Source: Oscillospiraceae bacterium
Lineage (GTDB): Bacteria; Bacillota; Clostridia; Oscillospirales; SIG530
Reading direction: 5' to 3'
Assembly (NCBI GenBank): GCA_015067075.1
Contig: SVND01000022.1
Span: 1 to 38,255 of the forward strand
DNA length: 38,255 nucleotides
Positions 8,831 through 29,357 of this stretch are shown one piece after another; the stretch's first letter is position 1, and every line of letters starts with the position of its first letter. Made by a program: the position numbers and the translations under genes. Below the pieces are notes generated by a model. That model had not been told where the DNA came from and did no database searches. It saw only the letters and a program-made list of their open reading frames with translations.

Positions 8831-9470
8831 ACCTATTTTTGTTTCTTTTTTTCAGTACCACCGCTAAAACTATTCCGCCTATCAGCATCGTTACACCGAT
8901 AACTATCATCACCGTAGATATTATATCAACAGGATTTATCACCTTAATGTCAAAGGCGATCTCTGATGGATTTACAGATGTTTGATTTCCAAAAGCATCA
9001 AAAATCACGTTGTAGCCAGGAAGCGTATGGCTTACTTTATGGGTAAACAGCATATTTGAAATAAACTTGGCAAGCAAGCCCATTCCCGTCGTTATTGCGC
9101 CTACAACGGCAAGATACACGCCTGTCAGCCAGCCGTATTTATTAAAAATATTTTTAATACCTTTTATCAGATTGTCCAACCACGATTCCTTTAAAGGCGC
9201 ACATTTCTCCTTCTTTTCTTCAGTTTTTTCTGCTTGTTTTTCCTCCTGCTTGACCTCGTGAGCCCCATCAGCTTCTTCATCCGAAAGCAAATGATCCGTC
9301 GTCGTATTAAATGTTTTTGCAAGCAAAACAAGATTGTTAAGGTCAGGCAGCGCCTCGCCCGTTTCCCATTTGCTTACTGCTTGGCGCGACACGTCAAGCT
9401 TCTCCGCTAGAGTTTCCTGAGACATACCTGCTTTTTTTCTATAAAACAATATTTTATCCTTTAAATTCAT
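8829..9470 (-). CDS. XRE-family regulator with C-terminal membrane domain
   Basis: 213 residues. The first ~60 are a helix-turn-helix (GMSQETLAEKLDVSRQAVSKWETG, then LPDLNNLVLLAKTFNTTTDHLL), the very common Clostridia XRE type. A Lys/Glu-rich linker (about 65-95) follows. Two hydrophobic segments come next (about 117-140, LTGVYLAVVGAITTGMGLLA, and about 186-207, ISTVMIVIGVTMLIGGIVLA), and the protein ends in basic residues. It is therefore probably a membrane-tethered repressor. It starts after GAAGGGAGAATAAT. Its targets are unknown; its own promoter or the nearby transporter are candidates. Confidence 0.88.
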   Translation of the reverse strand: MNLKDKILFYRKKAGMSQETLAEKLDVSRQAVSKWETGEALPDLNNLVLLAKTFNTTTDHLLSDEEADGAHEVKQEEKQAEKTEEKKEKCAPLKESWLDNLIKGIKNIFNKYGWLTGVYLAVVGAITTGMGLLAKFISNMLFTHKVSHTLPGYNVIFDAFGNQTSVNPSEIAFDIKVINPVDIISTVMIVIGVTMLIGGIVLAVVLKKRNKNR

Positions 9471-9565: not shown

Positions 9566-10210
9566 TTATTTTTGTCGCTTTTCCTGTCTTTTTTCCATCT
9601 TACTCCAATGATAAAAGCCGTAAACATCATTGGCAAAAAACACAGTAAAGCAGATAACCATCGGCAGATAAGCTCTATCCTGCACCGTCGCCGCTATCCA
9701 AAGACCTATAAGCACCACATCGTTTGCCGCATATGCAAGCCCGTAATATCTGCTCCGCACGAGCGTAAGCGCCGATGCCACATAGCTTGTAAACACGGAA
9801 ACCGTGCTTAAAACAAGGCTTGCATTTCCAAGTGCACACAGGATAAAATAAAAAATCACAGTTATCACAGCGCCGCTTGCACCGATAATAAGTGCACGTT
9901 TTTTCGTAAGCCTTTTCACCTTTACCTCGGCGCTGTTCTCAAAGGGATTTTTCATCCACGATACCACTGCTACCACGGCAATGGGCGAGGACATACACAA
10001 ATACGTTATCATTTCGCCGTAATATTTAAAATAAAAGGATATTATCCCATAAAATACGGCGAAAACTACGGTCAAGATCTGTCCTATAACATAGCCCTTT
10101 GCCACAAATATCAGCGCCGTTACACCTATCAACGACGCCACAAGCGTCAGTATGTCCTTTTCTGCTTGCCACATAAACGACAGCGTGACAAGCACTGCAT
10201 TACCATCCAC
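9566..10210 (-). CDS. pnuC: PnuC family nicotinamide riboside-type transporter, 5' end frameshifted
   Basis: The readable frame gives 214 residues with several membrane segments and the PnuC core LIGVTALIFVAKGYVIGQ, followed by FYGIISFYFKYYGEMITYL. PnuC proteins carry nicotinamide riboside or related vitamin precursors by facilitated diffusion, driven by intracellular phosphorylation. The only in-frame start here is a GTG at 10210 with no good ribosome site. A well-placed GGAG and ATG lie upstream at 10257 in another frame, and the 17 residues from there (MKRKLIGKLSSFEIALW) look like a PnuC N-terminus. One extra G near 10204 would join the two frames. The gene is either a recent frameshift pseudogene, uses internal initiation, or carries a sequence error. 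The DUF/XRE neighbour downstream has its own promoter. Confidence 0.8.
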   Translation of the reverse strand: MDGNAVLVTLSFMWQAEKDILTLVASLIGVTALIFVAKGYVIGQILTVVFAVFYGIISFYFKYYGEMITYLCMSSPIAVVAVVSWMKNPFENSAEVKVKRLTKKRALIIGASGAVITVIFYFILCALGNASLVLSTVSVFTSYVASALTLVRSRYYGLAYAANDVVLIGLWIAATVQDRAYLPMVICFTVFFANDVYGFYHWSKMEKRQEKRQK

Positions 10211-15380: not shown

Positions 15381-18300
15381 ATGAGCGATAATTACAATCA
15401 AAAAAAGCCCGTCAGACGTGACAGCGCTGGCAAAAACGTGCCTCATTCAAATCAGCGCCCCACCAATGTAAAACGCAAAAAAAGGAAAAAGCGCAGCCGC
15501 TTCAATATCGGTATGATATTGTTTCCTATCCTTATTATAGCCGCAATAATATGCGTTGTAAAGGTATTCGATAAATGGGATATCTCATCCATGATAGTCG
15601 GAGGTCAGCCCACCTCTGCACCGACAGCTACTCTCGCACCTAACACAACGCCTACGCCAACCTCCGCCAATGCGCCAGACGTCACCCCCTCCGCTTTAAA
15701 AGGTGCCGTAATAATTAACGAGGTCATGGCTAAAAATTCAAACGGACTTTCGGACAGCGACGGCGAATATTCCGACTGGATCGAAATATATAACGGCTCG
15801 GACAGTCCCGTTTCCCTTGAAAATCTTTATCTTTCCGACGATTCCTTAAAGCCTCTTCAGTGGCGTTTGCCCGCCATCATTCTTGAGCCCAACGACTACA
15901 TCGTAGTCTTCGCTTCGGGCAAGGACAGAAGCACCACCGATGCCGAGCTTCATACAAATTTCAAGCTCAGCTATGGTGAAACTGTTCTTTTGAGTGACGG
16001 CGCAGGTACTATCTCCTTCGTCACAGTTCCGGAAAGCATCGACAACATTTCATACGGCTGGACAACGGACGACGAGGGACATTACGCATTTTTCGCCTCG
16101 CCCTCCCCCAACGCCGAAAACATCGGTGCGCACGCCGTTTCCCTTTCCGAGCTTTCCGTTTCCGATATCGGTCTTTACATCAACGAGTACATGACGAAAA
16201 ACGTATACACTCTTTACGATGAGGACGGCGATGCCTGCGATTGGGTAGAGATTTATAACAGCTCCGCCGAGCCTATTTCCCTTAAAAATTTCGGACTTTC
16301 CGATGAACTTACAGACCCCCTTAAATGGACCTTCCCCGACGTTACTATTGCCCCCGACGAACATATTTTGCTCTATTTATCGGGCAAAACAAAGGAATAT
16401 GACAGTTCTACAGGTAAAATTCACGTTGATTTCCGTTTAGGTGAGCTTGACACACAGCTTGTTTTGTCAAATCCCGGCGGCATACCTGCCGATATAATTT
16501 CCCTTGTCCGCACACCCGACAACGTATCCGTCGGAAGATCCGCCTCCGACATCAACGCTTGGGAATTTTTCGCCATACCCACGCCCGGCAAAGCCAACGG
16601 CAACGGCTACACTTCCCTTGAAAACTATAACATTGCGCTTACGGAGCGTTTGTATATCAGCGAGGTTTGCTCCGTAAGCTCACATATCGTGTCGGGTCTT
16701 CCCGATGACGACTGGATAGAGCTTTTTAACAACACGCCCGATCCTGTCAATCTTCAAGGCTACGGACTCAGTAAGGACCTTTCGAGTCCGTGGCTTTTTA
16801 CTTTTCCCGACGTTACTATTGCACCGTACAGCTACCTTGTCGTTTCGGCAAGCGGCGTTGAAAATTTGAAAAAAAGCGCGCTTTCCGCAGGCTTTAAGGT
16901 CGGATTTTCAGGTGAAACTATAATCCTTACTGCCCCCGACGGGCTCATTGCCGACAGCTTTGACACCGGAAGACAGCGTGCAAACAACACAAGCGGCAGA
17001 ATTTTAGAAAACAACGCTCTTGTACGCCGCTTTTTCTCATCGCCCACAAAGGGGACGGCAAACACAGCCACAGCGTACACAGGCTTTGCTCAGCCTGCTG
17101 TAATTGAGCAGAGCGGCGGCGTGCTTTCCTCCGACAGCATTACCGTCACGCTATCTACAAATCAGCAGGGCGGCTCTATCCATTACACTACCGACGGCAC
17201 TGTCCCTACGGCAAGCTCGCCTAAATATACGGCGCCTATCACCGTAAGCAAGTCTTGCTCACTTCGCGCCGTGGTTTTCGGTTCGGGGCTCCTCCCTTCC
17301 GATACGGCTACGCGCTCATTTCTGATCGAAGATCCCCATGAGCTTCCCGTCGTTTGCCTTACAACCGACCCCGACAATCTTTTCGATTACAATACAGGTA
17401 TTTTTGCCGACGGTCCCGGTTGGACCGAGACGTTTCCCCATCAAGGCGCAAACTTCTGGAAGGATTGGGAACGTCCCGTACACTTCGAATATTATGAGGC
17501 TGACGGCACTTTAGGCGTTGAGTTCGACGCAGGTATTAAAAATTTCGGTCAATATTCCCGCGCGGAAAAACAAAAATCAGTATCCATAAATCTTAAGGAA
17601 GCTTACGGCACAAGTGAGGTCTGGTATCCCTTTTTCGAGGACAACGATGTCAAGACCTTCAAAAGCCTTATTCTCCGCATTTCCGGACAGGATTGGAATG
17701 TCTCCAAGCTTCGCGACGCTTATATCGTACGTACGATAAAGGGGCAGATGGATCTTGTTTATATGGATGTACAGCCCGTTGCCGTATATATCAACGGCGA
17801 ATATTGGGGCCTTTACAACCTGCGTGAAAAGATAGACGAGTCATATTTTTACTATCATGACGGCATTGAAGAGGATAACATTGACATTATCAAAGCCAAC
17901 AGCAACGTAAAAGCAGGTAGTATCACGGAATATAAGGAACTTTTAGCTTACCTTGACGACCACAACCTCAACCTTTCCAAGCAGGAAGATTTCGATTACG
18001 TTGCATCGAAAATAGATCTTGAGGAATGGACCAATTATTGGATAGTTGAAACCTTTTACGGTAATACAGACACAGGTAATATCAAGTTTTACAAGGAAAA
18101 GGGCGACGAGGGTAAATGGCGCTGGGTACTTTTTGACCTTGACTGGGCTTTGTGGCCGAGCACATACACGTGGAACACCCTTGAGGACATCATTGACAAG
18201 AAGGGACACGGCGTAAACAAGGCGTTCAGCACAAAGATCGCCCGTGCGCTTCTCAGCAACGAGGATTTCAAGGAGCAGTTTATCGATGCGTATGTCTACC

Positions 18301-18542
18301 ATGTAAAAAACACCTTTGATCCTGACAGATTGAACGACATTCTAAACGAATTTTGCGACGAAATACGAAGTGAAATTCCCCGTCAGGCAGAGCGCTGGGG
18401 CGCACCTAAGCTGTCAAGCTGGGAAAAAAATATTGAAAGAATACGAAAGATAATTTACGAAAAGCCCGACATTGCATACGAAAATATTCAGGAGACCTTC
18501 GGTCTTTCCGACAGCGAAATGAAAAAGCTTTTCGCAGATTAA
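15381..18542 (+). CDS. Membrane-anchored CotH kinase family protein with three lamin-tail domains
   Basis: 1053 residues. A basic cytoplasmic head (about 30-41) precedes one membrane segment (about 43-63), then a Thr/Pro linker, so the rest lies outside the cell. Three lamin-tail (LTD) domains follow, starting near 107 (IINEVMAKNS), 261 (YINEYMTKN) and 418 (YISEVCS). Each has a DWIE(I/L)(Y/F)N motif and the last two share FPDVTIAP. A chitobiase/hexosaminidase C-terminal-like module covers about 577-650 (SIHYTTDGTVPT). The CotH domain runs from about 656. Its D919-x-D921-W in VLFDLDWAL and NIKFYK are kinase-signature parts, so it may be an active atypical protein kinase. CotH in Bacillus phosphorylates spore-coat proteins; this version looks like a surface protein instead. 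The substrate is unknown. Confidence 0.9.
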   Translation: MSDNYNQKKPVRRDSAGKNVPHSNQRPTNVKRKKRKKRSRFNIGMILFPILIIAAIICVVKVFDKWDISSMIVGGQPTSAPTATLAPNTTPTPTSANAPDVTPSALKGAVIINEVMAKNSNGLSDSDGEYSDWIEIYNGSDSPVSLENLYLSDDSLKPLQWRLPAIILEPNDYIVVFASGKDRSTTDAELHTNFKLSYGETVLLSDGAGTISFVTVPESIDNISYGWTTDDEGHYAFFASPSPNAENIGAHAVSLSELSVSDIGLYINEYMTKNVYTLYDEDGDACDWVEIYNSSAEPISLKNFGLSDELTDPLKWTFPDVTIAPDEHILLYLSGKTKEYDSSTGKIHVDFRLGELDTQLVLSNPGGIPADIISLVRTPDNVSVGRSASDINAWEFFAIPTPGKANGNGYTSLENYNIALTERLYISEVCSVSSHIVSGLPDDDWIELFNNTPDPVNLQGYGLSKDLSSPWLFTFPDVTIAPYSYLVVSASGVENLKKSALSAGFKVGFSGETIILTAPDGLIADSFDTGRQRANNTSGRILENNALVRRFFSSPTKGTANTATAYTGFAQPAVIEQSGGVLSSDSITVTLSTNQQGGSIHYTTDGTVPTASSPKYTAPITVSKSCSLRAVVFGSGLLPSDTATRSFLIEDPHELPVVCLTTDPDNLFDYNTGIFADGPGWTETFPHQGANFWKDWERPVHFEYYEADGTLGVEFDAGIKNFGQYSRAEKQKSVSINLKEAYGTSEVWYPFFEDNDVKTFKSLILRISGQDWNVSKLRDAYIVRTIKGQMDLVYMDVQPVAVYINGEYWGLYNLREKIDESYFYYHDGIEEDNIDIIKANSNVKAGSITEYKELLAYLDDHNLNLSKQEDFDYVASKIDLEEWTNYWIVETFYGNTDTGNIKFYKEKGDEGKWRWVLFDLDWALWPSTYTWNTLEDIIDKKGHGVNKAFSTKIARALLSNEDFKEQFIDAYVYHVKNTFDPDRLNDILNEFCDEIRSEIPRQAERWGAPKLSSWEKNIERIRKIIYEKPDIAYENIQETFGLSDSEMKKLFAD

Positions 18543-18554
18543 AAGGGTAGCATT

Positions 18555-19586
18555 ATGATATACAGCTTTATGTGCGATTACAGCGAGGGCGCACATCCCG
18601 TCGTGCTCAAAGCCGTTGCCGACGAATGCGGCAAGCAGCACGGCAATTACGGCATCGACGAATGCTGTGACAAAGCCGCCGCGCTTATTAAAAACTCCAT
18701 ACACCGTAGTGATGCCGACGTTCACTTTTTGCCCGGCGGCACCGCGGTAAATCTCACCGTTATCGCCCATGCGCTTCGCCCCTTTGAAGCAGTTATTGCC
18801 GCGAAAACAGGGCATATTGCCGTTCACGAAACAGGCGCTATCGAAGCGAGCGGTCACAAGGTCGTCACCGTGGAGGGCACTGACGGCAAGCTTACGCCGA
18901 AGGAAGTTGAAGATGCAGTTTTGTTCCATACGGACGAGCATATGGTCCGTCCCGCCATGGTGTATATTTCAAATTCCACGGAGCTCGGCACGATTTATAC
19001 GAAATCAGAGCTCACGGCTTTGCGCAAATGCTGTGACGAGCACGGGCTTTTGCTGATGCTGGACGGCGCAAGGCTCTTCTGCGCCCTTGCAAGCGTGGAA
19101 AACGACCTTTCTCTTGCGGATATTGCCGCGCTGACCGATTGTTTTTACATCGGCGGTACAAAAAACGGCGCGCTTTTCGGCGAAGCACTCGTTATATTAA
19201 ACGATAATCTGAAAACTGCCTTCCGTTTTTCTATAAAACAGCGCGGTCACCTTACGGCGAAGGGCTTTTTGCTCGGCGCGCAGTTTGAAGCGCTTTTCAC
19301 TGATATGCTTGGCTTGGATATAGCGCGCCATGAAAACAAATGTGCCGCGGAAATTGCAAATACGCTAAAAGATCTCGACGTGCCTTTTTTTGCGCCTGCG
19401 CAGACAAATCAGCTTTTCCCCATTTTACCCGATGTTATCGCAGAAAAGCTTGGGGAGGATTTTGAGCTTTCCATATGGAAAAAATACGATGCCAGCCATA
19501 GCGTCGTCCGCCTCGTCACCTCATGGTCAACACCTCAATGGGCTGTAGACGCACTTAATGAAAAGCTGACAAAGCTTTGCAAATAA
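18555..19586 (+). CDS. Threonine aldolase-like, PLP-dependent beta-eliminating lyase family
   Basis: 343 residues of PLP fold type I. HGNYGIDE at the N-terminus, PGGTAVNL, and LLMLDGARLFCAL (the Asp that holds the pyridine ring) match low-specificity L-threonine aldolases. The PLP Lys is in YIGGTKNGALFGEA. It should cleave threonine or allo-threonine to glycine and acetaldehyde. It starts 12 bp after the CotH-like gene, with AAAAGGGTAGCATT before the ATG, so the two are likely co-transcribed although no functional link is obvious. Confidence 0.9.
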   Translation: MIYSFMCDYSEGAHPVVLKAVADECGKQHGNYGIDECCDKAAALIKNSIHRSDADVHFLPGGTAVNLTVIAHALRPFEAVIAAKTGHIAVHETGAIEASGHKVVTVEGTDGKLTPKEVEDAVLFHTDEHMVRPAMVYISNSTELGTIYTKSELTALRKCCDEHGLLLMLDGARLFCALASVENDLSLADIAALTDCFYIGGTKNGALFGEALVILNDNLKTAFRFSIKQRGHLTAKGFLLGAQFEALFTDMLGLDIARHENKCAAEIANTLKDLDVPFFAPAQTNQLFPILPDVIAEKLGEDFELSIWKKYDASHSVVRLVTSWSTPQWAVDALNEKLTKLCK

Positions 19587-19594
19587 TGTTAACT

Positions 19595-19625
19595 AAAAAA
19601 GCTTCGGAATATCCGAAGCTTTTTT
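19595..19625. terminator. Terminator after the threonine aldolase gene
   Basis: GCTTCGGA (19601-19608) and TCCGAAGC (19612-19619) form a perfect stem with a 3-base loop, flanked by A and T runs, so it can act in both directions. Confidence 0.88.
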
Positions 19626-19660
19626 ATATTGTCATGTGTTTACAAAACGCGTCTGTATAT

Positions 19661-19686
19661 TATGTTAAAAACTCAATTTTGTCTCA
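19661..19686 (-). promoter_or_regulatory. ECF-like promoter element 1 (no gene downstream)
   Basis: On the minus strand: TGAGAC (19686-19681), 16-bp spacer, CATA (19664-19661). It lies just past the stop codon of the lipoprotein at 19697 and points at a convergent terminator, so it appears to be a leftover. Confidence 0.5.
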
Positions 19687-19696
19687 CTTTTTAAAT

Positions 19697-22360
19697 TTAT
19701 TTCGCGCTTTTCCACGCTTCATACTGTGCGTTTATATCGTCTAAAAGCGTTTGCAAGCCCGCTTCATAAAGCTTTGCATTAAGCTCTGCAAGGGTGGCTT
19801 CAACATCCTCGTATGCACCGCTCCACAGTCCTGCATATTCCTGCTCTATTCTGCCGATAGTCTGTTGCAGCTCCACTGTTTCGGGGTTATCGTAATGGAA
19901 GCCCGTCAAAGATGTTAATGCCGCATCTTCAAGCCTTGAAGCGTATATTTCTTTTTTGTCTGCTCTTTCACCTTCTTTCGGTAAATTCAATATAATATCA
20001 CTAAAATAAAGATGTCTAGAATCAATTTCAGCCTTTTCTATCGCTGCCTCGGTGTAAACAGCTCTTCCCTCTACGATCTCATACGTTTCTCCTTTTTTAC
20101 CAAATCGCATTATATTGGCAAATTCACTATCCGTATATAAAAGTTTCAGCACTTCAAAAGCTTCCTGTTTATGCTCACTCCAGCTTGCAATTCCATAGCA
20201 CCGTTCCGTTCCCGTTATCACATATCCTGTGCTTTCTGTTCTCTTTGCAACAAGCTCTAAATCATCCGGGAGCTGCAATTGTTCACCAAACGCATCCCCT
20301 TTTTCTTTCGGTGCACATCTTTGCGCCAAAGCTTTAACATCTTCATAGCCGCTCATATTTGTATATAAGCATAAAAAGTCATACATATCATACGGAATAC
20401 TTTCATAAGTTCCTATTTCTTCGCTGAAATACTCGCCTATGGTTTTTAAATAATCCTTTACATCTTCTTGCTCATAAAAATTCACTATCTGAGATACATC
20501 TTCAGTAAAACGCATACTTATGGCTTTTTGAGCCGCTGAATTTGTAATTACACGTTCATATGGAATGTATGTATTATTAGCAGATATTCTTATAGTTAAA
20601 AAATCTTCATTTCCTTTTTCTTTTTCACTTTCATATATGCGTTTAAAAATAGGCATATCATTTTTAAGGTCACCGGTAAAATCATCTATTGTAAGTCCGT
20701 ATTCTTCGAGCACTGCTTTATTAAAAATATATCCGGGTGCCACATCAAAGACAGGTCTTACAGGAAAGCCGTATACTTCTCCGTTTATCTCCATAGCTTT
20801 CCAAAACTTTTCATCATAAAAAGCCTTAAACTCTCTTCCCGAATCGCTTTCCAAAAGTTCATTCCAAGCAGCAAGTAATCCATCACGGACAAAAGCGTAA
20901 TACACATCACCTACAGGGTCCATACAAAGCCCCGTTGAAATAATATCTGCCTGCTTTCCTTTATTTTTCAATGAAACCGCGCTGTCATACTCACAAAATC
21001 CGCTATCCGTATAATAAAAATCCACAAAAAAGTCATAACCCTTTTTATCAATGTATTCATTTGCAGTTCTCGCAAATTCAGCGCTTGCATCTATCATATC
21101 GCCATTCATATACCAAACTATGCGAGTTTTATCGGCATACTTTTTATTCATTTCCGCCGATACCATTTCCCAAGTAGGAATTTCCGTCGGCGTTGCTTGC
21201 GGCGTTTCAACAACAGGCATTTGTGTTATTTTGTCCACACTTTTAAACACTCCGTTATAAAAACTATCCTTTTCAATAAGATCATATTTTACTTGACCGT
21301 TTACAATGGAAGATGTTACAAAATACTCTTCATTATCACCCAGCAAATTTATCCACAAATCATGAGAAAAGCGAGCTTTCTCCTTCTCTTTTACTGTATC
21401 TATAATGATATATTCATGTCCGATAAATAAAATAAGATTATTTCCGTCAAGATAAGAAAATGTCGGTCCTTCACAGCTGAATATTACGTTTCCTTTACTA
21501 TTCAATATTTTCGTCACCTTGTCTTCGATTTCACCTCTGATAAGACCTTTTTCATCAAACCCTACCATAAAGCTGTATTCCTCATCTTGCGGAGAATGGA
21601 CAAGCTTTATTTTCTTTGTTTTTATATCAATAGCATGAATCTCATACTTGCTTTTAACTACGCCATAAAATTCCTCTTTTTCACCGTTTGCATTTATCGT
21701 TTCTCTCATCCCATATTCATGGTCTGCAAACGTATAATAAAGTGAACCGTTATTATACAAAAAGCGCGTTATTGTATATTCTTTTGTTATCGTTTCAAAA
21801 AGCTCCTCATATTTACCGTTTGACAAGTCCACTTCATAAATAGTTTCACAAAAAGAGCTGAAATCAACATCTTGTTCTTGTTGGGCAAAGCTCCATGCAA
21901 CAAAATACAATTTTCCGTCAGCACATATACTCGGCATTATTCCCTTCATGAAGAAACCGTTTATCTCACATACGATACTTTTTGCCGAGCCATCCAATTC
22001 GCTTTTATATATGACAATTTTGCTTGTATCTGCGCTACCTAATATCCAATAAAGATTTTCGTTATACTTAATTATATCATATATTTCCTCGCCATACATT
22101 GATACCGCATCACAAATAGGTACAGGGTTTTTATCGCTTTTTGGTTCATGATTACATGATGGATCATTACACAATACTACGTCATATCCCGTCTGCGCAT
22201 CTAAAAAGGATACATGCTCACCGTTAATATGATACACACCATCTTCAGTCACACAAAAACTATTACCTGACATTGCCACATCTTCATTCTTTTTATCATT
22301 GCAAGATGCAAATGTAAAACAAAGAAGTACTGCAAATATAATCGTAATGATTCTTCTCAT
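19697..22360 (-). CDS. Lipoprotein fusing a beta-propeller-like domain to an ABC solute-binding domain (paralog A)
   Basis: 887 residues. Signal peptide with lipobox FASC (about Cys20). Residues ~35-385 are beta-rich, with repeating strands such as GKLYFVAW, GSLYYTF and YEIHAIDIKTKK, as in YncE/DUF5050-type propellers. Near its start is the motif LCNDPSCNH...PICDAV. After a PQATPTEIPTW linker, residues ~400-815 look like a family 1 solute-binding protein of the LipO/DUF3502 type (AFEVLKLLYTDSEFANIM, then FGKKGETYEIVEGRAV). A helical tail of ~70 residues is almost identical to that of paralog B. No permease or ATPase gene is near. It may bind a carbohydrate as sensor or receptor; this is inference. 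It follows the small secreted protein gene after a perfect hairpin. Confidence 0.85.
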   Translation of the reverse strand: MRRIITIIFAVLLCFTFASCNDKKNEDVAMSGNSFCVTEDGVYHINGEHVSFLDAQTGYDVVLCNDPSCNHEPKSDKNPVPICDAVSMYGEEIYDIIKYNENLYWILGSADTSKIVIYKSELDGSAKSIVCEINGFFMKGIMPSICADGKLYFVAWSFAQQEQDVDFSSFCETIYEVDLSNGKYEELFETITKEYTITRFLYNNGSLYYTFADHEYGMRETINANGEKEEFYGVVKSKYEIHAIDIKTKKIKLVHSPQDEEYSFMVGFDEKGLIRGEIEDKVTKILNSKGNVIFSCEGPTFSYLDGNNLILFIGHEYIIIDTVKEKEKARFSHDLWINLLGDNEEYFVTSSIVNGQVKYDLIEKDSFYNGVFKSVDKITQMPVVETPQATPTEIPTWEMVSAEMNKKYADKTRIVWYMNGDMIDASAEFARTANEYIDKKGYDFFVDFYYTDSGFCEYDSAVSLKNKGKQADIISTGLCMDPVGDVYYAFVRDGLLAAWNELLESDSGREFKAFYDEKFWKAMEINGEVYGFPVRPVFDVAPGYIFNKAVLEEYGLTIDDFTGDLKNDMPIFKRIYESEKEKGNEDFLTIRISANNTYIPYERVITNSAAQKAISMRFTEDVSQIVNFYEQEDVKDYLKTIGEYFSEEIGTYESIPYDMYDFLCLYTNMSGYEDVKALAQRCAPKEKGDAFGEQLQLPDDLELVAKRTESTGYVITGTERCYGIASWSEHKQEAFEVLKLLYTDSEFANIMRFGKKGETYEIVEGRAVYTEAAIEKAEIDSRHLYFSDIILNLPKEGERADKKEIYASRLEDAALTSLTGFHYDNPETVELQQTIGRIEQEYAGLWSGAYEDVEATLAELNAKLYEAGLQTLLDDINAQYEAWKSAK

Positions 22361-22394
22361 ATATATCCTCCTAATTCAAAATTTCAACATTTAT

Positions 22395-22429
22395 TTATGC
22401 TGTGCACGGATTGTCCGTGCACAGCATAA
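22395..22429 (-). other. Perfect 16-bp hairpin between the secreted-protein gene and paralog A
   Basis: The arms 22395-22410 and 22414-22429 are exact complements with a 3-base loop. No T-run follows on the minus strand, so it is more likely an mRNA-stabilising or processing hairpin than a terminator, allowing the upstream small gene to be expressed more strongly. Confidence 0.85.
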
Positions 22430-22441
22430 GCTGAGATAAAT

Positions 22442-22870
22442 CTATTTATCTTGTGTTGTAGTTATCCATGTTTGTTCTCCAGCTCTTGCTGAATGCGTAG
22501 ATGTTACTCTATATGATGTATAAATTCCTTGATACTGTGCCGGCATTGATGAACCCGCATACGCAGTGGTTGTTCCATTTGCCTGAGTATTAAAGTCCAC
22601 TACACTCAACGGTACTTGATCTTCATCTATTATCTCATAACAAGTTGAAACAGTTACAGAAGGATTGTAATCCGCTGGATTAAATCCATATGCAAAAGTC
22701 ATTACCGTCGAACCGATTCCGCTAGACGTATTTAAAGACGATTTTCCTAAAACAGATTGTGCGCCAGAATTAAGTGACGCATTTTCCTGTGCATTATATG
22801 CAAATGCAGCTAATGTACCTATTGTTGCAAATATTGCGATTGCGATGATAATAGAAACTATTTTCTTCAT
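22442..22870 (-). CDS. Small secreted protein of unknown function
   Basis: 142 residues. A clear Sec signal peptide (MKKIVSIIIAIAIFATIGT) has a likely cut after AFA near residue 24. The mature part is ~118 residues, rich in Ser, Thr, Ala and Tyr, with a single Cys (in VTVSTCYEIID) and no Lys between about 44 and the end. I do not recognise a family. An ideal ribosome site, TTAGGAGGAACAAAAA, precedes the ATG. It lies between the 24-codon ORF and lipoprotein paralog A, behind an ECF-like promoter, so it is probably a co-regulated extracellular partner of the lipoproteins. Confidence 0.82.
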   Translation of the reverse strand: MKKIVSIIIAIAIFATIGTLAAFAYNAQENASLNSGAQSVLGKSSLNTSSGIGSTVMTFAYGFNPADYNPSVTVSTCYEIIDEDQVPLSVVDFNTQANGTTTAYAGSSMPAQYQGIYTSYRVTSTHSARAGEQTWITTTQDK

Positions 22871-22940
22871 TTTTTGTTCCTCCTAAGTAATTTTAATATT
22901 TTTTCTTTTGTGGTGGCGGCGGTTTCTTTTTTTCTTCAGC

Positions 22941-23015
22941 TTATTTTCCGCCTTCAATAAGCTGCGCTACTTTCCACGGCGGTATTTCGTGAGACTTTTC
23001 ACTTTGAATTGTCAT
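22941..23015 (-). CDS. 24-codon ORF, possible truncated small protein or peptide
   Basis: It begins ATG at 23015 after AAAGGAGGAAAATAT, a near-perfect ribosome site. The product is 24 residues: MTIQSEKSHEIPPWKV then AQLIEGGK, stop TAA at 22943-22941. In the same frame the next 15 codons read AEEKKKPPPPQKKKY and end in TAA at 22895-22893, just before the ribosome site of the next gene. That tail looks like coding sequence, so the first TAA may be a nonsense mutation in a 40-codon gene, or the tail may be a chance run. It is the first gene after ECF-like promoter 2. I do not recognise a family. Confidence 0.6.
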   Translation of the reverse strand: MTIQSEKSHEIPPWKVAQLIEGGK

Positions 23016-23064
23016 ATATTTTCCTCCTTTACAGATTGAGAGATTTTATCCCCCTACTATATAT

Positions 23065-23090
23065 TACAATTCAAAATCAATTTTGTCTCA
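23065..23090 (-). promoter_or_regulatory. ECF-like promoter element 2, for the 24-codon ORF and secreted protein
   Basis: On the minus strand: TGAGAC (23090-23085), 16-bp spacer, TGTA (23068-23065). The same stretch can be read as a weak sigma-A promoter (GAGACA, 17 bp, TAATAT). The small ORF begins about 50 bp downstream. Confidence 0.6.
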
Positions 23091-23231
23091 CTTTTTTCAA
23101 ACTTTTTTTAAATTTTTTGAAAAAAGTTGTTTTTTTCGCCGTTTTTATTAGTTTTTTAGCTCTTTTCGTATAAATTAGCCCTCTATTTATATAGTACGTT
23201 TGAAATCCATTTTTGTCTCACTTTTTTTTAA
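23087..23231. repeat. Duplicated intergenic block, copy 1
   Basis: About 145 bp matching 27191-27335 at more than 90% by eye. It carries ECF-like element 3, a conserved stretch without an ORF, and an A/T-rich inverted repeat. Confidence 0.85.
23195..23220 (-). promoter_or_regulatory. ECF-like promoter element 3
   Basis: On the minus strand: TGAGAC (23220-23215), 16-bp spacer, CGTA (23198-23195). It lies 130 bp upstream of element 2 and directly after the stop of paralog B. Confidence 0.6.
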
Positions 23232-23242
23232 AATCTTTAAAT

Positions 23243-25903
23243 TTATTTTATGCTTTTCCACGCTTCATACTGCGTGTTTATATCGTCTAAAAGCGTTTGC
23301 AAGCCCGCTTCGTAAAGCTTTGCGTTAAGCTCTGCAAGTGTCGCGTCTACATCCTCGTATGCACCGTTCCACAGTCCTGCATATTCCTGCTCTATTCTGC
23401 CGATAGTTTGTTGCAACTCCAATGTTTCTGGATTGTCGTAATGAAAGCCCGTTACAGCTGACGTTTCAGCTTTTTCATAAAGCTGTCTGTATATTTCCGC
23501 TTTATTCTCAGCCTCTCCCTTTCTCGGCAACAGCAGTAATTCATCATTAAAAAACCATGTTCTGCTGCTTACTCCGCTTGAGTTAGAAGTATATACGACT
23601 TTTCCATCCGCTATTTCATAAGTACTTCCTTCCTTGCCGTACATCAATATGTTTGCAAATTCAGCATCCGTACTCATAAGCTTTATTACTTCAAATGCTT
23701 CATCTTTATGCTCACTCCACGATGCAACACCAAAGCATCTTTCTACCGCTGTTAATACTTGCGATGTTGCTTCAAGCCACTTTCCTGCCACCATAAGATC
23801 GTCAGGCAACGGAAGATACTCTCCTTGCTGATTCGTCGGTGCGCTCCTTTGTGCTATCTCACGCATCTCATATTTTTTCTCCGATAATGTGTAAATGCAG
23901 AAAAAGTTATGCATATCAGCAGGCAAATTTCCCGTTTTACAAAATCCGCTGTCCATATATTTCTTTACTGTATGAAGTGTCGCGGACACGTCACTTTGCT
24001 CATAGAAATTAAGTATTCCTCCATTTTCATCGCCAATTTTTGCAACGATACATTTCGGCGATGTGGAATTAGACATTACTCTATCATATGGCATCATGTT
24101 ACGGTTTTCATTGAACAGCACTGTTACAAAATCAGGGTTTTCCTTTATCTCCGCGTCATATACACGTTTAAAAAGCTCGTAATCTTTTTCTAAGTCGCCC
24201 GTAAAATCATCCACGGAAAGTTCATACTTGTCCAAAATCGCCTTATTGAAAACATACACCTTGTCATATTCGTATGCCATACGCTTTGTAACGCCGTAAA
24301 CTTCGCCGTTTATCTCTGCTGATTTCCATATTTTTTCATTATAGAATGCACGAAGCTCTTTTCCCGATTCCGTTTCAAAAAACTCCGTCATCGGTGCAAA
24401 GAGTCCATCTCTCGCATATGCGTAGTATGAATCACCGATAGGATCAATGCAAAATCCCGTTGAGATTATATCGGCTTGTATCTTATTTTCCTTGAGTGAT
24501 TTTGTAAAGTTATATTCACTCCAGTCACCATTCGTATAATACAGGTCAACAAAAAAATCATATCCTTTTTTATCAAGATATTCATTTATCATTCTTGCAA
24601 AGTCCTCAGATGAGTTTATCAGCGCACCGTTCATATACCAAACAAGACGTGTTTTGTCAGCATATTTCTCATTCATTTCCGCCGACACCTTTTCCCATAA
24701 AGGCATTTCCGTCGGTGTTGCCTGCGGACTTGCTGTTATAGGATTTTCATTTGTGCCTATTTTTTGAGCTACGGGATTCCAATACGCATTTCCTTTGTAA
24801 AAATTATCTTTTGATACTATAGCAAAGTCATCGTTCGTAATGTTTTTAGCTACTAAATACTTTTCACCGGATCCGATAATAACTTTTCCTTCACCTTTAA
24901 ACTGCTTTTCTATCTGTGCCGTTTCTATGTCTATTATCGTGTATAAATCGCCGACAATTTTTCTGACTATCAGCTTGTCTTCCGCTACGAAAAATATTTC
25001 GCGGTCACCGACTTCATGGATAATTCTTCCGTTATTCGTCAGCACCTTTTTACCTTCAATATATTCTTCTATAACCCTGCTGTAATCATCGCAAATTCCC
25101 ACTATCCCTTTATATTCACCTTCGGCATTCTCTTGTTTTTCCGTTCCTGTCTCTAAATCGTAGAAATAAAAGTCAGTTATCCATTCTTTCACTTGATACG
25201 AAGCTGTTGTTTCATCATATTCGCTTATACTGTTATTAATATTATAATACAGCTTTTTTCCGTCTGTATACAGGTTTATAAATTTATAAATGCCATTGCC
25301 TGACTCTTTTTCAATCAGTTTCTCTACTTTACCTGTAGAAAGCTCGATTTTATACAAGCTTTCCACTAATTTATTGAAATCCGGTTCTCCTTCGCCCATA
25401 TCTGCGGAATAATCCCATCCCACGTAATACATATATCCGTTTGCACATATTATCGGAGTTACACCATTTTGCATAAACCATCCTTTTATAGTCGCAACGG
25501 TACTTTTCCCGCTTCCGTCAAGATTACTTTTGTTTATATACAGCTCGTTAGTATTAATGCTATTCTCTACAGTATAAAGAACATCCTTGTATACAATCAT
25601 GCCGTAATAGTCCTCTCCATGCATTGTTACTGCATTACACGTGGGCAGAGGATTTGTTTTTCCGTTATATAATTCATGCGCACATTCAGGCTTATTACAA
25701 AGTACTATGTCGTATCCTGTTTCAAAATCGGCAAAACAAAGCTTTTTTCTCGACTCTCTGCTAATATGATATATTCCGTTTTCTGTAATACAAGAATTTA
25801 CCATTGAACTTACAATATCTTTTTCATTTGCTTTTTCCTCGTCACATGCTGTAACCGCCCAGCAGAGTAAAACTACGAGTAAAACTGTAATAATCCTTTT
25901 CAT
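23243..25903 (-). CDS. Lipoprotein fusing a beta-propeller-like domain to an ABC solute-binding domain (paralog B)
   Basis: 886 residues from the ATG at 25903, which follows AAGGAGGATACGT; a longer in-frame start would overlap the previous gene and lacks a ribosome site. Same order as paralog A: lipobox TAC near Cys20, propeller-like region (~35-390) with LCNKPECAH...PTCNAV, linker PQATPTEMPLW, LipO-like solute-binding domain (EAFEVIKLMSTDAEFANIL, YGKEGSTYEIADGKVV), and the helical tail. Overall similarity to paralog A is moderate, but the last ~69 residues differ at only five positions. It starts 14 bp after the propeller-only gene, so those two are one operon. No permease is near. Confidence 0.85.
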   Translation of the reverse strand: MKRIITVLLVVLLCWAVTACDEEKANEKDIVSSMVNSCITENGIYHISRESRKKLCFADFETGYDIVLCNKPECAHELYNGKTNPLPTCNAVTMHGEDYYGMIVYKDVLYTVENSINTNELYINKSNLDGSGKSTVATIKGWFMQNGVTPIICANGYMYYVGWDYSADMGEGEPDFNKLVESLYKIELSTGKVEKLIEKESGNGIYKFINLYTDGKKLYYNINNSISEYDETTASYQVKEWITDFYFYDLETGTEKQENAEGEYKGIVGICDDYSRVIEEYIEGKKVLTNNGRIIHEVGDREIFFVAEDKLIVRKIVGDLYTIIDIETAQIEKQFKGEGKVIIGSGEKYLVAKNITNDDFAIVSKDNFYKGNAYWNPVAQKIGTNENPITASPQATPTEMPLWEKVSAEMNEKYADKTRLVWYMNGALINSSEDFARMINEYLDKKGYDFFVDLYYTNGDWSEYNFTKSLKENKIQADIISTGFCIDPIGDSYYAYARDGLFAPMTEFFETESGKELRAFYNEKIWKSAEINGEVYGVTKRMAYEYDKVYVFNKAILDKYELSVDDFTGDLEKDYELFKRVYDAEIKENPDFVTVLFNENRNMMPYDRVMSNSTSPKCIVAKIGDENGGILNFYEQSDVSATLHTVKKYMDSGFCKTGNLPADMHNFFCIYTLSEKKYEMREIAQRSAPTNQQGEYLPLPDDLMVAGKWLEATSQVLTAVERCFGVASWSEHKDEAFEVIKLMSTDAEFANILMYGKEGSTYEIADGKVVYTSNSSGVSSRTWFFNDELLLLPRKGEAENKAEIYRQLYEKAETSAVTGFHYDNPETLELQQTIGRIEQEYAGLWNGAYEDVDATLAELNAKLYEAGLQTLLDDINTQYEAWKSIK

Positions 25904-25917
25904 ACGTATCCTCCTTA

Positions 25918-27087
25918 TCACATGTCCTTTATTTCTTTCCAAATCACATTTCCGCTGTAGAAATCTTTCTTTTCACACAGCCAAAACACCTTTTTATTGC
26001 TTTGCATATTGATTACTATAATGTATTTTTCCGTATCAGCTTGAATATTAGACGAGCTGATTTTAAAGCTGTTTTCTATCTCTCCCGACGGAATATCCAC
26101 TACGTTTATACTCAGATCATTATTTTCATACTTTCTTGTAAGCAGCTTATCTCCCGCTACATATGCAAAGCCGCCGTCTTCATATATCATTTTTCCTTCG
26201 GAATCGTAAATATCGTACTTATTATAAAATATCATCCCTTGACTGTCTGAAAGCCCTAACGCTGTGACATATACTCCCTCTTCCTGCGATGAATGCAAAA
26301 GCTCTTGTTCTTGCGTCATCAGATCCAAGGCATACAAGTCATATTTTTGCTTTTGCAGTTTTAACATCGATATTATATCGCCATTGGACAGTTCTGTTTC
26401 TTCATAACCGTATTCGCCGTCATCTATGGTGTAATAAAGCTTTTCTTCATCAGCAAAAAAATTCATAAACATCCGTACGCCGTCTTGGTTCTGCTTTTCA
26501 AACAGCACCTTCGTTTCGCCGTTTAACAAATCAAAACATATCAGCTTCTCTGTTCTTTGATTTTCCATACCTTCATTTTCGGCAACCGCAGTCACATCAG
26601 TTCCTACATAATACAGCCTGTCCCCGGTGCAGACAGTCGGTGTCGAAATTGACGAAAGATAAAATCCTTTCTCCGTTGCTATAAGTCTTTTTAATGAACC
26701 GTCAAGTTCACTTTTATATATACAAAGCTTTGAGTCCGCAAAATCATTCGTTACCCAATAAAGCGCACCTTTATACACAACAACGTCAAAGAGCTGTTCT
26801 CCGTGCATAGATACGGAATCGCAGGTCGGAAGCGGATTCGTCTCTTGATTATACGGCAGATGCATACATCCAGGTTTATTACACAAAACCACATCATAGC
26901 CTGTTTCAAAATCTGCGAAATACATATTTTCGCCCTCAATATGGTATATCCCGTTTTCAGCTACAAAGCATCCAAAAATTCCTTCTTCCGAAACCGCAAG
27001 ATCCCTTTCATTTGCTTTTTCCTCGTCACAAGATGCAACCGCAAAGCAAAGTAACACCGCGAGCAGAATTGTAATAACTTTTTTCAT
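25918..27087 (-). CDS. Propeller-only lipoprotein paralog
   Basis: 389 residues. Signal peptide and lipobox VASC, then the same beta-rich propeller-like domain as its two larger paralogs, with LCNKPGCMH...PTCDSV. It stops (KKDFYSGNVIWKEIKDM) exactly where the others enter the Pro/Thr linker to the solute-binding domain. It is therefore either a natural stand-alone version or the product of a clean deletion. The ATG follows CAGGAGGATACAT, and the message leader can fold into a 13-bp hairpin (27113-27156) that begins at the expected start of ECF-like promoter 4. Confidence 0.85.
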   Translation of the reverse strand: MKKVITILLAVLLCFAVASCDEEKANERDLAVSEEGIFGCFVAENGIYHIEGENMYFADFETGYDVVLCNKPGCMHLPYNQETNPLPTCDSVSMHGEQLFDVVVYKGALYWVTNDFADSKLCIYKSELDGSLKRLIATEKGFYLSSISTPTVCTGDRLYYVGTDVTAVAENEGMENQRTEKLICFDLLNGETKVLFEKQNQDGVRMFMNFFADEEKLYYTIDDGEYGYEETELSNGDIISMLKLQKQKYDLYALDLMTQEQELLHSSQEEGVYVTALGLSDSQGMIFYNKYDIYDSEGKMIYEDGGFAYVAGDKLLTRKYENNDLSINVVDIPSGEIENSFKISSSNIQADTEKYIIVINMQSNKKVFWLCEKKDFYSGNVIWKEIKDM

Positions 27088-27112
27088 ATGTATCCTCCTG
27101 ATTTAAAAATAT

Positions 27113-27156
27113 GGCGGTAATTTTTATGCAATTTTGGGCCACCAAAAACTACCGCC
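27113..27156 (-). other. Leader hairpin before the propeller-only gene
   Basis: 27113-27125 pairs with 27144-27156 (12 pairs and one G-U). The stem starts at about the predicted 5' end of the transcript, a position typical for hairpins that protect mRNA. Confidence 0.65.
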
Positions 27157-27169
27157 TTATTTTGTATAT

Positions 27170-27195
27170 TACGTTAAAAATTCAATTCTGTCTCA
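27170..27195 (-). promoter_or_regulatory. ECF-like promoter element 4, for the propeller-only gene
   Basis: On the minus strand: TGAGAC (27195-27190), 16-bp spacer, CGTA (27173-27170). It overlaps a weak sigma-A-like reading (GAGACA, 17 bp, TAATAT). Confidence 0.62.
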
Positions 27196-27335
27196 CTTTT
27201 TTCGAAATTTTTTTAAATTTTTTGAAAAAAGTTGTTTTTCCCGCCGTTTTTATTAGTTTTTTAGCTCTTTTCGTATAAATTAGCCCTCTATTTATAGAGT
27301 ACGTTTGAAATCAAATTTTGTCTCACTTTTTTCGA
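27191..27335. repeat. Duplicated intergenic block, copy 2
   Basis: Second copy of the block at 23087-23231, with the same spacing between its two ECF-like elements (130 bp). Confidence 0.85.
27300..27325 (-). promoter_or_regulatory. ECF-like promoter element 5
   Basis: On the minus strand: TGAGAC (27325-27320), 16-bp spacer, CGTA (27303-27300). A further, decayed relative sharing TTTCAAAC and the A/T-rich -10 region lies at about 27398-27431. Confidence 0.6.
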
Positions 27336-27458
27336 ATTTTTTTGAAAAGTTGCTCTTTTCTTATTTTTACCGATTTATAAATAAAAGTTTGTGCATTATA
27401 TAATGTGTTTGAAAATTCAATGATGCCTAACAGTTATGTGAATGTAGTTTTCTTAAGC

Positions 27459-27507: not shown

Positions 27508-29298
27508 TTATTTCTTTTTTCTTGTGCCGTATATCACAAAAGCGATCACAGCCAAGGGAATAACGATTATTCCGAAAATTATTACTCCGATAACAGAACC
27601 GTCAAGTCCTTCCCCCTCCGTCGGCGTTGTCTGCGCATCTGACGGTGTAGGTGTGGGAGATTGGGCGGCAGGCGGTGTCGCCGTAGGCGGAACAGGAGTG
27701 GGCGTTGCGGTAGGCGCAGGCGTTTCAACCACATTAAGCTCCATTTCAAACTGATTTGAGCTCATAAAATACTGCTGTCTTACTGTAGAATAGTATTCCA
27801 CCTGCACGTTTTTTCCGTCCTCGGAGAAGTAGAGCATCGCCACAAGTCCCGTTGCACCCTGCGCCGCATCGACGCCCTGCGGGTCTACAAGCATCTGTGT
27901 TACGACATTGCCGTTATCGCCCTTTGTCTGCGCCATTATGATATTGTCGCACGGGTCGTGGCCCGACAAAACGAGCACGATGTTTTCATGCTTTGAAGCA
28001 AGCTTTTCCCAAATATGATCACCGTTATTGCTTCCGCCCGTTGTCGCAGGCGGGCATACGTCACCTTGATCGAGCGTCGTTCCGTCACGGAAAAGATATG
28101 CGTGAGTAGTGATGATAACGTTGTGATAAGGATGCGCTTCTATTACGCCGCTTGCCCATTGCAGTATATCGTCTCCCGCACCGTAATCAAGCGTCATGAT
28201 AAGGTATTTTATGTCGCCGACAACAAGCTCCTGCCATGTATTTTCAAGCTTGTCGTTATAAGCTTCTTCTAACTGCTTATGATAATATTCACCCATAAAA
28301 GCGCTGTTAAACTGGGCAGCGCCGTCGTGATTTCCGCGGTTCAAGCTGTAAGGAATTACACCGTCCATCAGCTGTATAGCTTCCTTGCAGGCACTCCATT
28401 CACGGTAAGTGTTGGAATTTGTTATATCGCCAAGACCCATTACGAATTTTATATTTTTCTTCTCAGCATTATCAACTATCCATTGATAGATGTCCGTCAT
28501 ATAGTCCGTATATTTTTCTGCGACTATCTGCGTATCGCCCACAACTGCAAAGGAATAAGCATAGTCCTTCACGGGTTCTTTTTCCTCAAACCATATTTTC
28601 TCATAACCGATATCGTAGCCGTTTCCGCTGATATCCTCCACTCTGTCGGGAAGCTCACCGCTGATACTGCTGAAATCATAGCCCGCGATAAGATTATCGG
28701 TGCTTATAGTCTGCGCCTGATAATCAGCCAAAATCTGCGCTTCAGTTCGTGAATCGGCATATACGGCAATATTTTTTATCAGCCCCTTGAAATATTGCGC
28801 GTTGCCTGAGCGAAGGTCACCGCCGACGGCAAAGGGAAGAGTGCAGAGCGACTGCGACACATTGCCCTGATTTACAAGCTGTACCGCCTCGCCGTTCACA
28901 TAGCAAGTCACATATGAGCCGTCCGCCTCGCGCACTATGGCAATGTGATTCCATTGACCGTTATATACATTTGCGTTTCTGAATTGCCAATCGTGAACGG
29001 TACCGTCTTCATCGACCCAATAAAGACGGGGCGTACCCGATGTATGTATTTCAAAATTGATGCAACGTCCGCTGCCTGTGTAATTGCCGAGTATGACACC
29101 GCCTCGTGTTGAAGCGTTCATGTTCTCAGGGAAAAACACAGTCGCCTCGAAGGTGTTGGGAAGCGTATCGTAAACCTTTTTCGTTTTGTAAAGGTCAGAT
29201 ACGTTTACCGAAATTCCGACCTCCTCGGCGCTGACGTCAAATATGCTAAGACTCATCATCAAAAACATTGCTAAAATTAAAGAAACGGCTTTTTTCAT
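27508..29298 (-). CDS. Surface metallophosphoesterase with LamG-like domain and C-terminal membrane anchor
   Basis: 596 residues from the ATG at 29298 (AAAGGATG ribosome site); the upstream in-frame ATG lies over the promoter. Sec signal peptide (cut near VSA), then a LamG/concanavalin-like domain at about 25-210 (WNHIAIVREADGSYVTCYVNG). The calcineurin-like phosphoesterase follows, with VVGDTQ, GLGDITN, NRGNHD, TTHAY and SGHDPC as metal motifs. A Pro/Thr stalk leads to a C-terminal membrane segment (about 570-592) and RKKK. There is no LPxTG sortase motif. It probably acts on the cell surface, perhaps on glycan-linked phosphate (inference). It is distinct from the phosphoesterase lipoprotein at 218-1747. 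Confidence 0.88.
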   Translation of the reverse strand: MKKAVSLILAMFLMMSLSIFDVSAEEVGISVNVSDLYKTKKVYDTLPNTFEATVFFPENMNASTRGGVILGNYTGSGRCINFEIHTSGTPRLYWVDEDGTVHDWQFRNANVYNGQWNHIAIVREADGSYVTCYVNGEAVQLVNQGNVSQSLCTLPFAVGGDLRSGNAQYFKGLIKNIAVYADSRTEAQILADYQAQTISTDNLIAGYDFSSISGELPDRVEDISGNGYDIGYEKIWFEEKEPVKDYAYSFAVVGDTQIVAEKYTDYMTDIYQWIVDNAEKKNIKFVMGLGDITNSNTYREWSACKEAIQLMDGVIPYSLNRGNHDGAAQFNSAFMGEYYHKQLEEAYNDKLENTWQELVVGDIKYLIMTLDYGAGDDILQWASGVIEAHPYHNVIITTHAYLFRDGTTLDQGDVCPPATTGGSNNGDHIWEKLASKHENIVLVLSGHDPCDNIIMAQTKGDNGNVVTQMLVDPQGVDAAQGATGLVAMLYFSEDGKNVQVEYYSTVRQQYFMSSNQFEMELNVVETPAPTATPTPVPPTATPPAAQSPTPTPSDAQTTPTEGEGLDGSVIGVIIFGIIVIPLAVIAFVIYGTRKKK

Positions 29299-29328
29299 AA
29301 AAAAACATCCTTTCAAAGCTTTGAAAAT

Positions 29329-29357
29329 ATTATAGCACATTTCCCCGCAAAACTCAA
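29329..29357 (-). promoter_or_regulatory. Sigma-A promoter of the LamG metallophosphoesterase gene
   Basis: On the minus strand: TTGAGT (29352-29357), 17-bp spacer, TATAAT (29329-29334). It begins within 15 bp of the spoIIIAF stop, separating this gene from the sporulation operon. Confidence 0.8.

Follow-up and report, generated by a model that had tools for sequence, protein, structure and literature searches.

What controls the lipoprotein genes clustered on this contig is the question raised by a short element repeated around them. The window, meaning the whole 38,255-nt stretch analysed here, corresponds to contig C40, one of 85 in the 2.26-Mb genome of an Oscillospiraceae bacterium. A preliminary description of the window had listed five minus-strand elements reading TGAGAC, 16 bp and then CGTA or a close variant, and took them for SigW-like promoters of one regulon served by one dedicated regulator, probably an extracytoplasmic function (ECF) sigma factor. 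All five are present where that description placed them, with the letters it gave. Their number exceeds chance, as TGAGAC-N16-YRTA matches six times in the window compared with 0.12 matches expected from shuffled sequence. The sixth match, at 9418 on the plus strand, lacks the conserved flanks and, judged by its sequence, is a chance occurrence. Within the window AAAAAGTGAGACARAAT is present at the five sites only. The features of the array are as follows, the promoters and protein types being predictions.

27300-27325, minus strand: distal promoter of the first tandem pair, TGAGAC-N16-CGTA, 212 nt from the start of the 389-aa lipoprotein gene
27170-27195, minus strand: proximal promoter of the first tandem pair, TGAGAC-N16-CGTAATATA, with the ATG at 27087, 82 nt on
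27106-27163, minus strand: 5'-leader hairpin directly downstream of the proximal promoter of operon 1
25918-27087, minus strand: 389-aa beta-propeller lipoprotein, first gene of operon 1
23243-25906, minus strand: 887-aa lipoprotein, second gene of operon 1, with a beta-propeller-like N-terminal half and a solute-binding-type C-terminal part with DUF3502
23195-23220, minus strand: distal promoter of the second tandem pair, 22 nt past the stop of 23243-25906
23065-23090, minus strand: proximal promoter of the second tandem pair, TGAGAC-N16-TGTA, with the 24-aa ORF 49 nt on
22941-23015, minus strand: 24-aa ORF MTIQSEKSHEIPPWKVAQLIEGGK, with a strong Shine-Dalgarno sequence, directly after the promoter
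22442-22870, minus strand: 142-aa secreted protein of operon 2, 28% identical to its counterpart in a second lipoprotein array (contig C21)
19697-22360, minus strand: paralogous 887-aa lipoprotein (DUF3502), final gene of operon 2
19661-19686, minus strand: orphan copy, TGAGAC-N16-CATA, just past the lipoprotein stop codon

The array reads best as two operons with tandem promoters before each, membership being judged from spacing. Operon 1 would run from the sites at 27300 and 27170 through the 389-aa lipoprotein to the first 887-aa lipoprotein. Operon 2 would run from the sites at 23195 and 23065 through the 24-aa ORF and the 142-aa secreted protein to the second 887-aa lipoprotein, and a hairpin without a T-run lies at about 22397-22425, between its last two genes. 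The 389-aa lipoprotein is predicted to fold as a beta-propeller (pLDDT 80) with structural matches including TolB and YncE, although the TM-scores are low and support the fold class only. The 142-aa protein has no Pfam family and its predicted fold is unusable (pLDDT 36). The 24-aa ORF has a near-identical counterpart in C21 (L061 17090-17164, plus strand) that is two residues apart; as both differences change the amino acid, no case is made for selection on the peptide. The leader downstream of the proximal promoter at 27170-27195 is the same at the copies in C21 and on contig C11, and its hairpin is strong in all three lipoprotein leaders (z -3.7 to -5.1). Rfam gave zero matches across the window and the regulon loci, the leader hairpin included. 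On either side of the array, the window also encodes a 1053-aa protein (15381-18542, plus strand) in which three lamin-tail domains occur together with a CotH kinase domain and one of the chitobiase C-terminal type, and a 610-aa protein (27508-29340, minus strand) that carries domains of the laminin-G-like and metallophosphatase types.

The segments 23060-23241 and 27165-27346 share 90% identity over 182 nt, with two sites in each, and because this block is duplicated the five sites are not independent. The copy at 19661 faces the terminator (about 19600-19630) of the convergent gene 18555-19586 and has no gene downstream. It is probably a relic of duplication whose -10 box has decayed to CATA. 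The description of five promoters of one regulon therefore holds for four of them, as two duplicated tandem pairs serving two operons, and fails for the orphan.

Across the genome the motif is rare and far from randomly spread. TGAGAC-N16-YRTA matches 17 times, 14 of these with the flanks AAGTGAGACARAAWT, and a search for the 35-bp AAAGTGAGACANAATTNNNTTTNNNNNGTANTATA allowing up to three mismatches returned exactly these 14, 11 exact, three with one mismatch and none with two or three. A reversed-motif control over the same 2.26 Mb gave no matches. Five of the 14 sites belong to the window array, four to the array in C21 and one to C11, and four are single sites on contigs C53, C72, C13 and C51. 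Confinement to the lipoprotein array, as first stated, is thus true of the window, with nine further sites elsewhere in the genome, and all sites lie at lipoprotein operons or ECF genes. The C11 site is near a contig end and is followed by genes for a lipoprotein, an ABC-2-like permease and an ABC ATPase. The ABC-2-like permeases have no Pfam matches and were named from their sequence and neighbours. TGAGAC forms the -35 box at every site, and the -10 box is CGTA at nine of 14, TGTA at four and CATA at the orphan. At 13 of the 14 sites a gene with a ribosome-binding site follows, at 46-82 nt, or 179-212 nt for the distal tandem copies.

The four single sites, which are all of those outside lipoprotein operons, each precede an ECF sigma gene, with 46-60 nt from CGTA or TGTA to the start codon. 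The probability of four such placements is 6e-14, or 8e-11 with C13 and C51 counted once, assuming 14 sites strewn at random. A regulator encoded elsewhere had been predicted, and an ECF gene whose own promoter carries the motif had been proposed as the test; the genome does hold such genes, on contigs other than C40. The ECF type of the regulator is supported, but the single sigma is replaced by four paralogous candidates. The C53 protein matches sigma region 2 at residues 19-88 (E 3e-4, below the Pfam cut-off) and region 4 (Sigma70_r4_2) at 132-181 (E about 1e-8), and scores 53 bits on a sigma70-ECF model with a cut-off of 42.9. It is 41% identical to the C72 protein. The C13 and C51 genes are near-identical, and both run off contig ends (L063 1-400, L064 1-400), placing their sigma-4 domains outside the sequence; at these ends the assembly probably broke at a repeat. 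None of the other 15 sigma-model matches in the genome has the motif upstream. In a phylogenetic tree the five motif-bearing ECFs, counting one from another genome described below, form one clade with support of 99/96.

Both uncut ECF genes, on C53 and C72, are followed by a gene for a protein with a single membrane span, judged by eye, and a C-terminal DUF4367 domain. This protein is probably a membrane anti-sigma factor. At C53 it is followed in turn by an 83-aa HTH_3 protein of the small Xre type, which raises the idea that the repeated element is an operator for this or another DNA-binding regulator. At C72, however, there is no Xre-type ORF after the anti-sigma candidate. The element also has no dyad symmetry, and its -35/-10 layout and distance to the start codon are those of ECF promoters. 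An operator is hence a highly improbable reading of the element.

Beyond this genome, a sigma closely related to that of C53 (42% identity) was found only in G037, an Oscillospiraceae MAG (SIG491) from another family, in a search that covered 58 relatives first and 394 genomes of the order afterwards. An ECF-profile scan of about 85,000 genomes returned the G037 loci only, and a search of the G037 family gave no further relatives. In the 2.7 Mb of G037, TGAGAC-N16-CGTA occurs twice, each time before an ECF sequence of the clade. At the intact gene the motif lies upstream within 46-67 nt, a range shared with the clade genes described above, and the recognition helix is near-identical to that of C53 (STVGTILQRSLK), whereas C72 differs (STVNTIVNRLYK). 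The next protein in G037 is again single-span and aligns with the DUF4367 candidates, and a domain search for DUF4367 in it gave no match. The second G037 copy (L154 4198-8238) carries a near-identical truncated ECF sequence with its promoter and precedes a set of genes similar to the C11 operon, encoding a lipoprotein, ABC-2-like membrane proteins and an ABC ATPase. As it is a near-identical duplicate, the two copies count as one independent event. The longer motif TGAGAC-N16-CGTAATA was found 11 times in the 394 genomes: five times in the genome under study, twice in G037 and four times singly, these last all inside longer open frames. No such motif lies upstream of 11 ECFs from other genomes that are more distantly related.

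The comparison with G037 carries particular weight. Comparison of the flanks sorts the sites into eight distinct contexts in the own genome, to which G037 adds a ninth. TGAGAC never varies among them, and neither do the T and A of the -10 box. The A/T-rich 16-bp spacer is likewise well conserved in the own genome. This conservation, spacer included, could largely reflect recent copying, leaving the G037 orthologue as the main independent test. Between the two genomes the -35 box, the -10 box and scattered A/T positions are kept and the flanks have diverged.

The same comparison bears on whether the elements are weak housekeeping promoters, read by sigma-A as GAGACA-17-TAnTAT and kept solely through duplication of the array. 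The 182-nt block is indeed duplicated, and the own sites match 7-9 of the 12 consensus bases. In contrast, the site at the G037 orthologue, where TGAGAC and CGTA are both retained, offers sigma-A only GAGACG and TAATAG, three of six bases per hexamer. Among the five window sites a lax sigma-70 scan picked the orphan alone, with no excess of matches in the region, and duplication does not account for the motif being tied exclusively to a single ECF clade. Scored in this way, the sigma-A reading was rejected for its poor consensus match, weaker still in G037, and is very unlikely.

The flanks of some copies are mosaic. Upstream, the site at 27195 resembles that at 23090; downstream, it resembles the copies in C21 and C11. 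This suggests that copies have recombined inside the promoter core. Mosaic promoter copies comprise those at 27195, 23090 and 23220 in the window, at 9911 and 16884 in L061 and at 6158 in L062. Such mosaicism, together with the truncated ECF copy before the lipoprotein/ABC operon of G037, would also fit a 35-45-bp core at which a mobile cassette recombines or inserts, its likeness to a promoter being incidental. However, the mosaic is explained by promoter copies recombining in the ordinary way, and at every site but one the spacing to the next gene, which has a ribosome-binding site, is that of a promoter. What G037 has kept, the -35, the -10 and scattered A/T, is promoter-like and unlike a recombinase site. 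A role of the core as a mobile-cassette site is accordingly given almost no credence.

The preferred reading, with a probability of roughly 0.88, is that the elements are promoters of an autoregulated regulon of this ECF clade, comprising lipoproteins, a secreted protein and ABC-2 exporters. The first interpretation as ECF-type promoters of a dedicated regulon is thereby supported, both by the motif-bearing ECF genes and by the G037 orthologue. The motif, its genome-wide distribution, its exclusive link to the ECF clade and its conservation in another family are direct observations; direct recognition, the anti-sigma role, the signal and the physiological role are proposed from them. In the proposed mechanism, the membrane partner (the DUF4367 protein) would hold the ECF sigma until an envelope or extracellular signal frees it. 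RNA polymerase carrying one or more of the clade sigmas would then read the -35 TGAGAC, the 16-bp spacer and the -10 CGTA. The freed sigma would thus switch on its own operon along with the surface lipoproteins (beta-propellers and solute-binding types), the small secreted protein and the ABC-2 exporters. With each sigma gene under the same promoter, the circuit would be positively autoregulated.

The predicted regulon is of a known kind, and its motif, sigmas and targets appear to be new. Like ECF (Group IV sigma-70) factors in general, these sigmas have sigma-2 and sigma-4 only, joined by a linker of about 43 residues, with CGT in the -10 box, and a neighbouring membrane anti-sigma candidate and an autoregulatory promoter are predicted to act here in the same way. 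Unlike most ECF promoters, the -35 box here reads GAGAC and lacks the AAC that has been described as a general, not strict, requirement; the later ECF definition is the sigma-2/sigma-4 layout (PMC4153023, PMC8103513). The envelope-stress regulons of Bacillus SigW, SigX and SigM share the two-box promoter with its 16-bp spacer and CGTA -10, and have envelope proteins among the targets; autoregulation of the sigma gene and an anti-sigma role for the membrane protein encoded next to it, both predicted here, would be further likenesses. They differ in their TGAAAC -35 box. In the predicted regulon the targets are lipoproteins of the beta-propeller and DUF3502 types that form arrays, and one motif is common to four paralogous sigmas. 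The likeness to SigW-type promoters first noted thus extends to layout and CGTA and not to SigW itself. The SigW promoter TGAAAC-N16-CGTA is matched at none of the sites, and a SigW orthologue was rejected, with the C53 protein scoring 51.6 and 42.9 bits on two SigW equivalog models whose cut-offs are 209 and 243.1 bits.

The paralogous sigma-I factors of cellulolytic clostridia divide their targets among themselves, while the paralogues here share a near-identical promoter. Sigma-I sets are likewise several alternative sigmas in one clostridial genome that govern extracellular proteins, but belong to a different sigma family (PMC6056542). A further, doubtful proposal is that the four ECF paralogues, sharing the atypical GAGAC -35 box, cross-activate as one circuit and that the near-identical promoter cores double as recombination seams for lipoprotein cassettes. 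If true, one sequence would both co-regulate and diversify the surface-protein repertoire.

The literature searched contained no paper on DUF4367, on DUF3502 with lipoproteins or on TGAGAC ECF promoters. In C. difficile, a 2020 study of transcription start sites left the consensus of its three ECF sigmas still to be identified (PMC7438776), which makes a motif-to-sigma assignment in Clostridia useful. Here a promoter motif, its probable sigmas and a predicted regulon are tied together from sequence alone in an uncultured, gut-type clostridial lineage. The -35 box without AAC and the near-identical recognition helix of the C53 and G037 sigmas offer a test case for recognition of the -35 element by sigma-4. 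For the organism, the predicted regulon would mark beta-propeller and solute-binding lipoproteins and exporters as a co-induced surface response.
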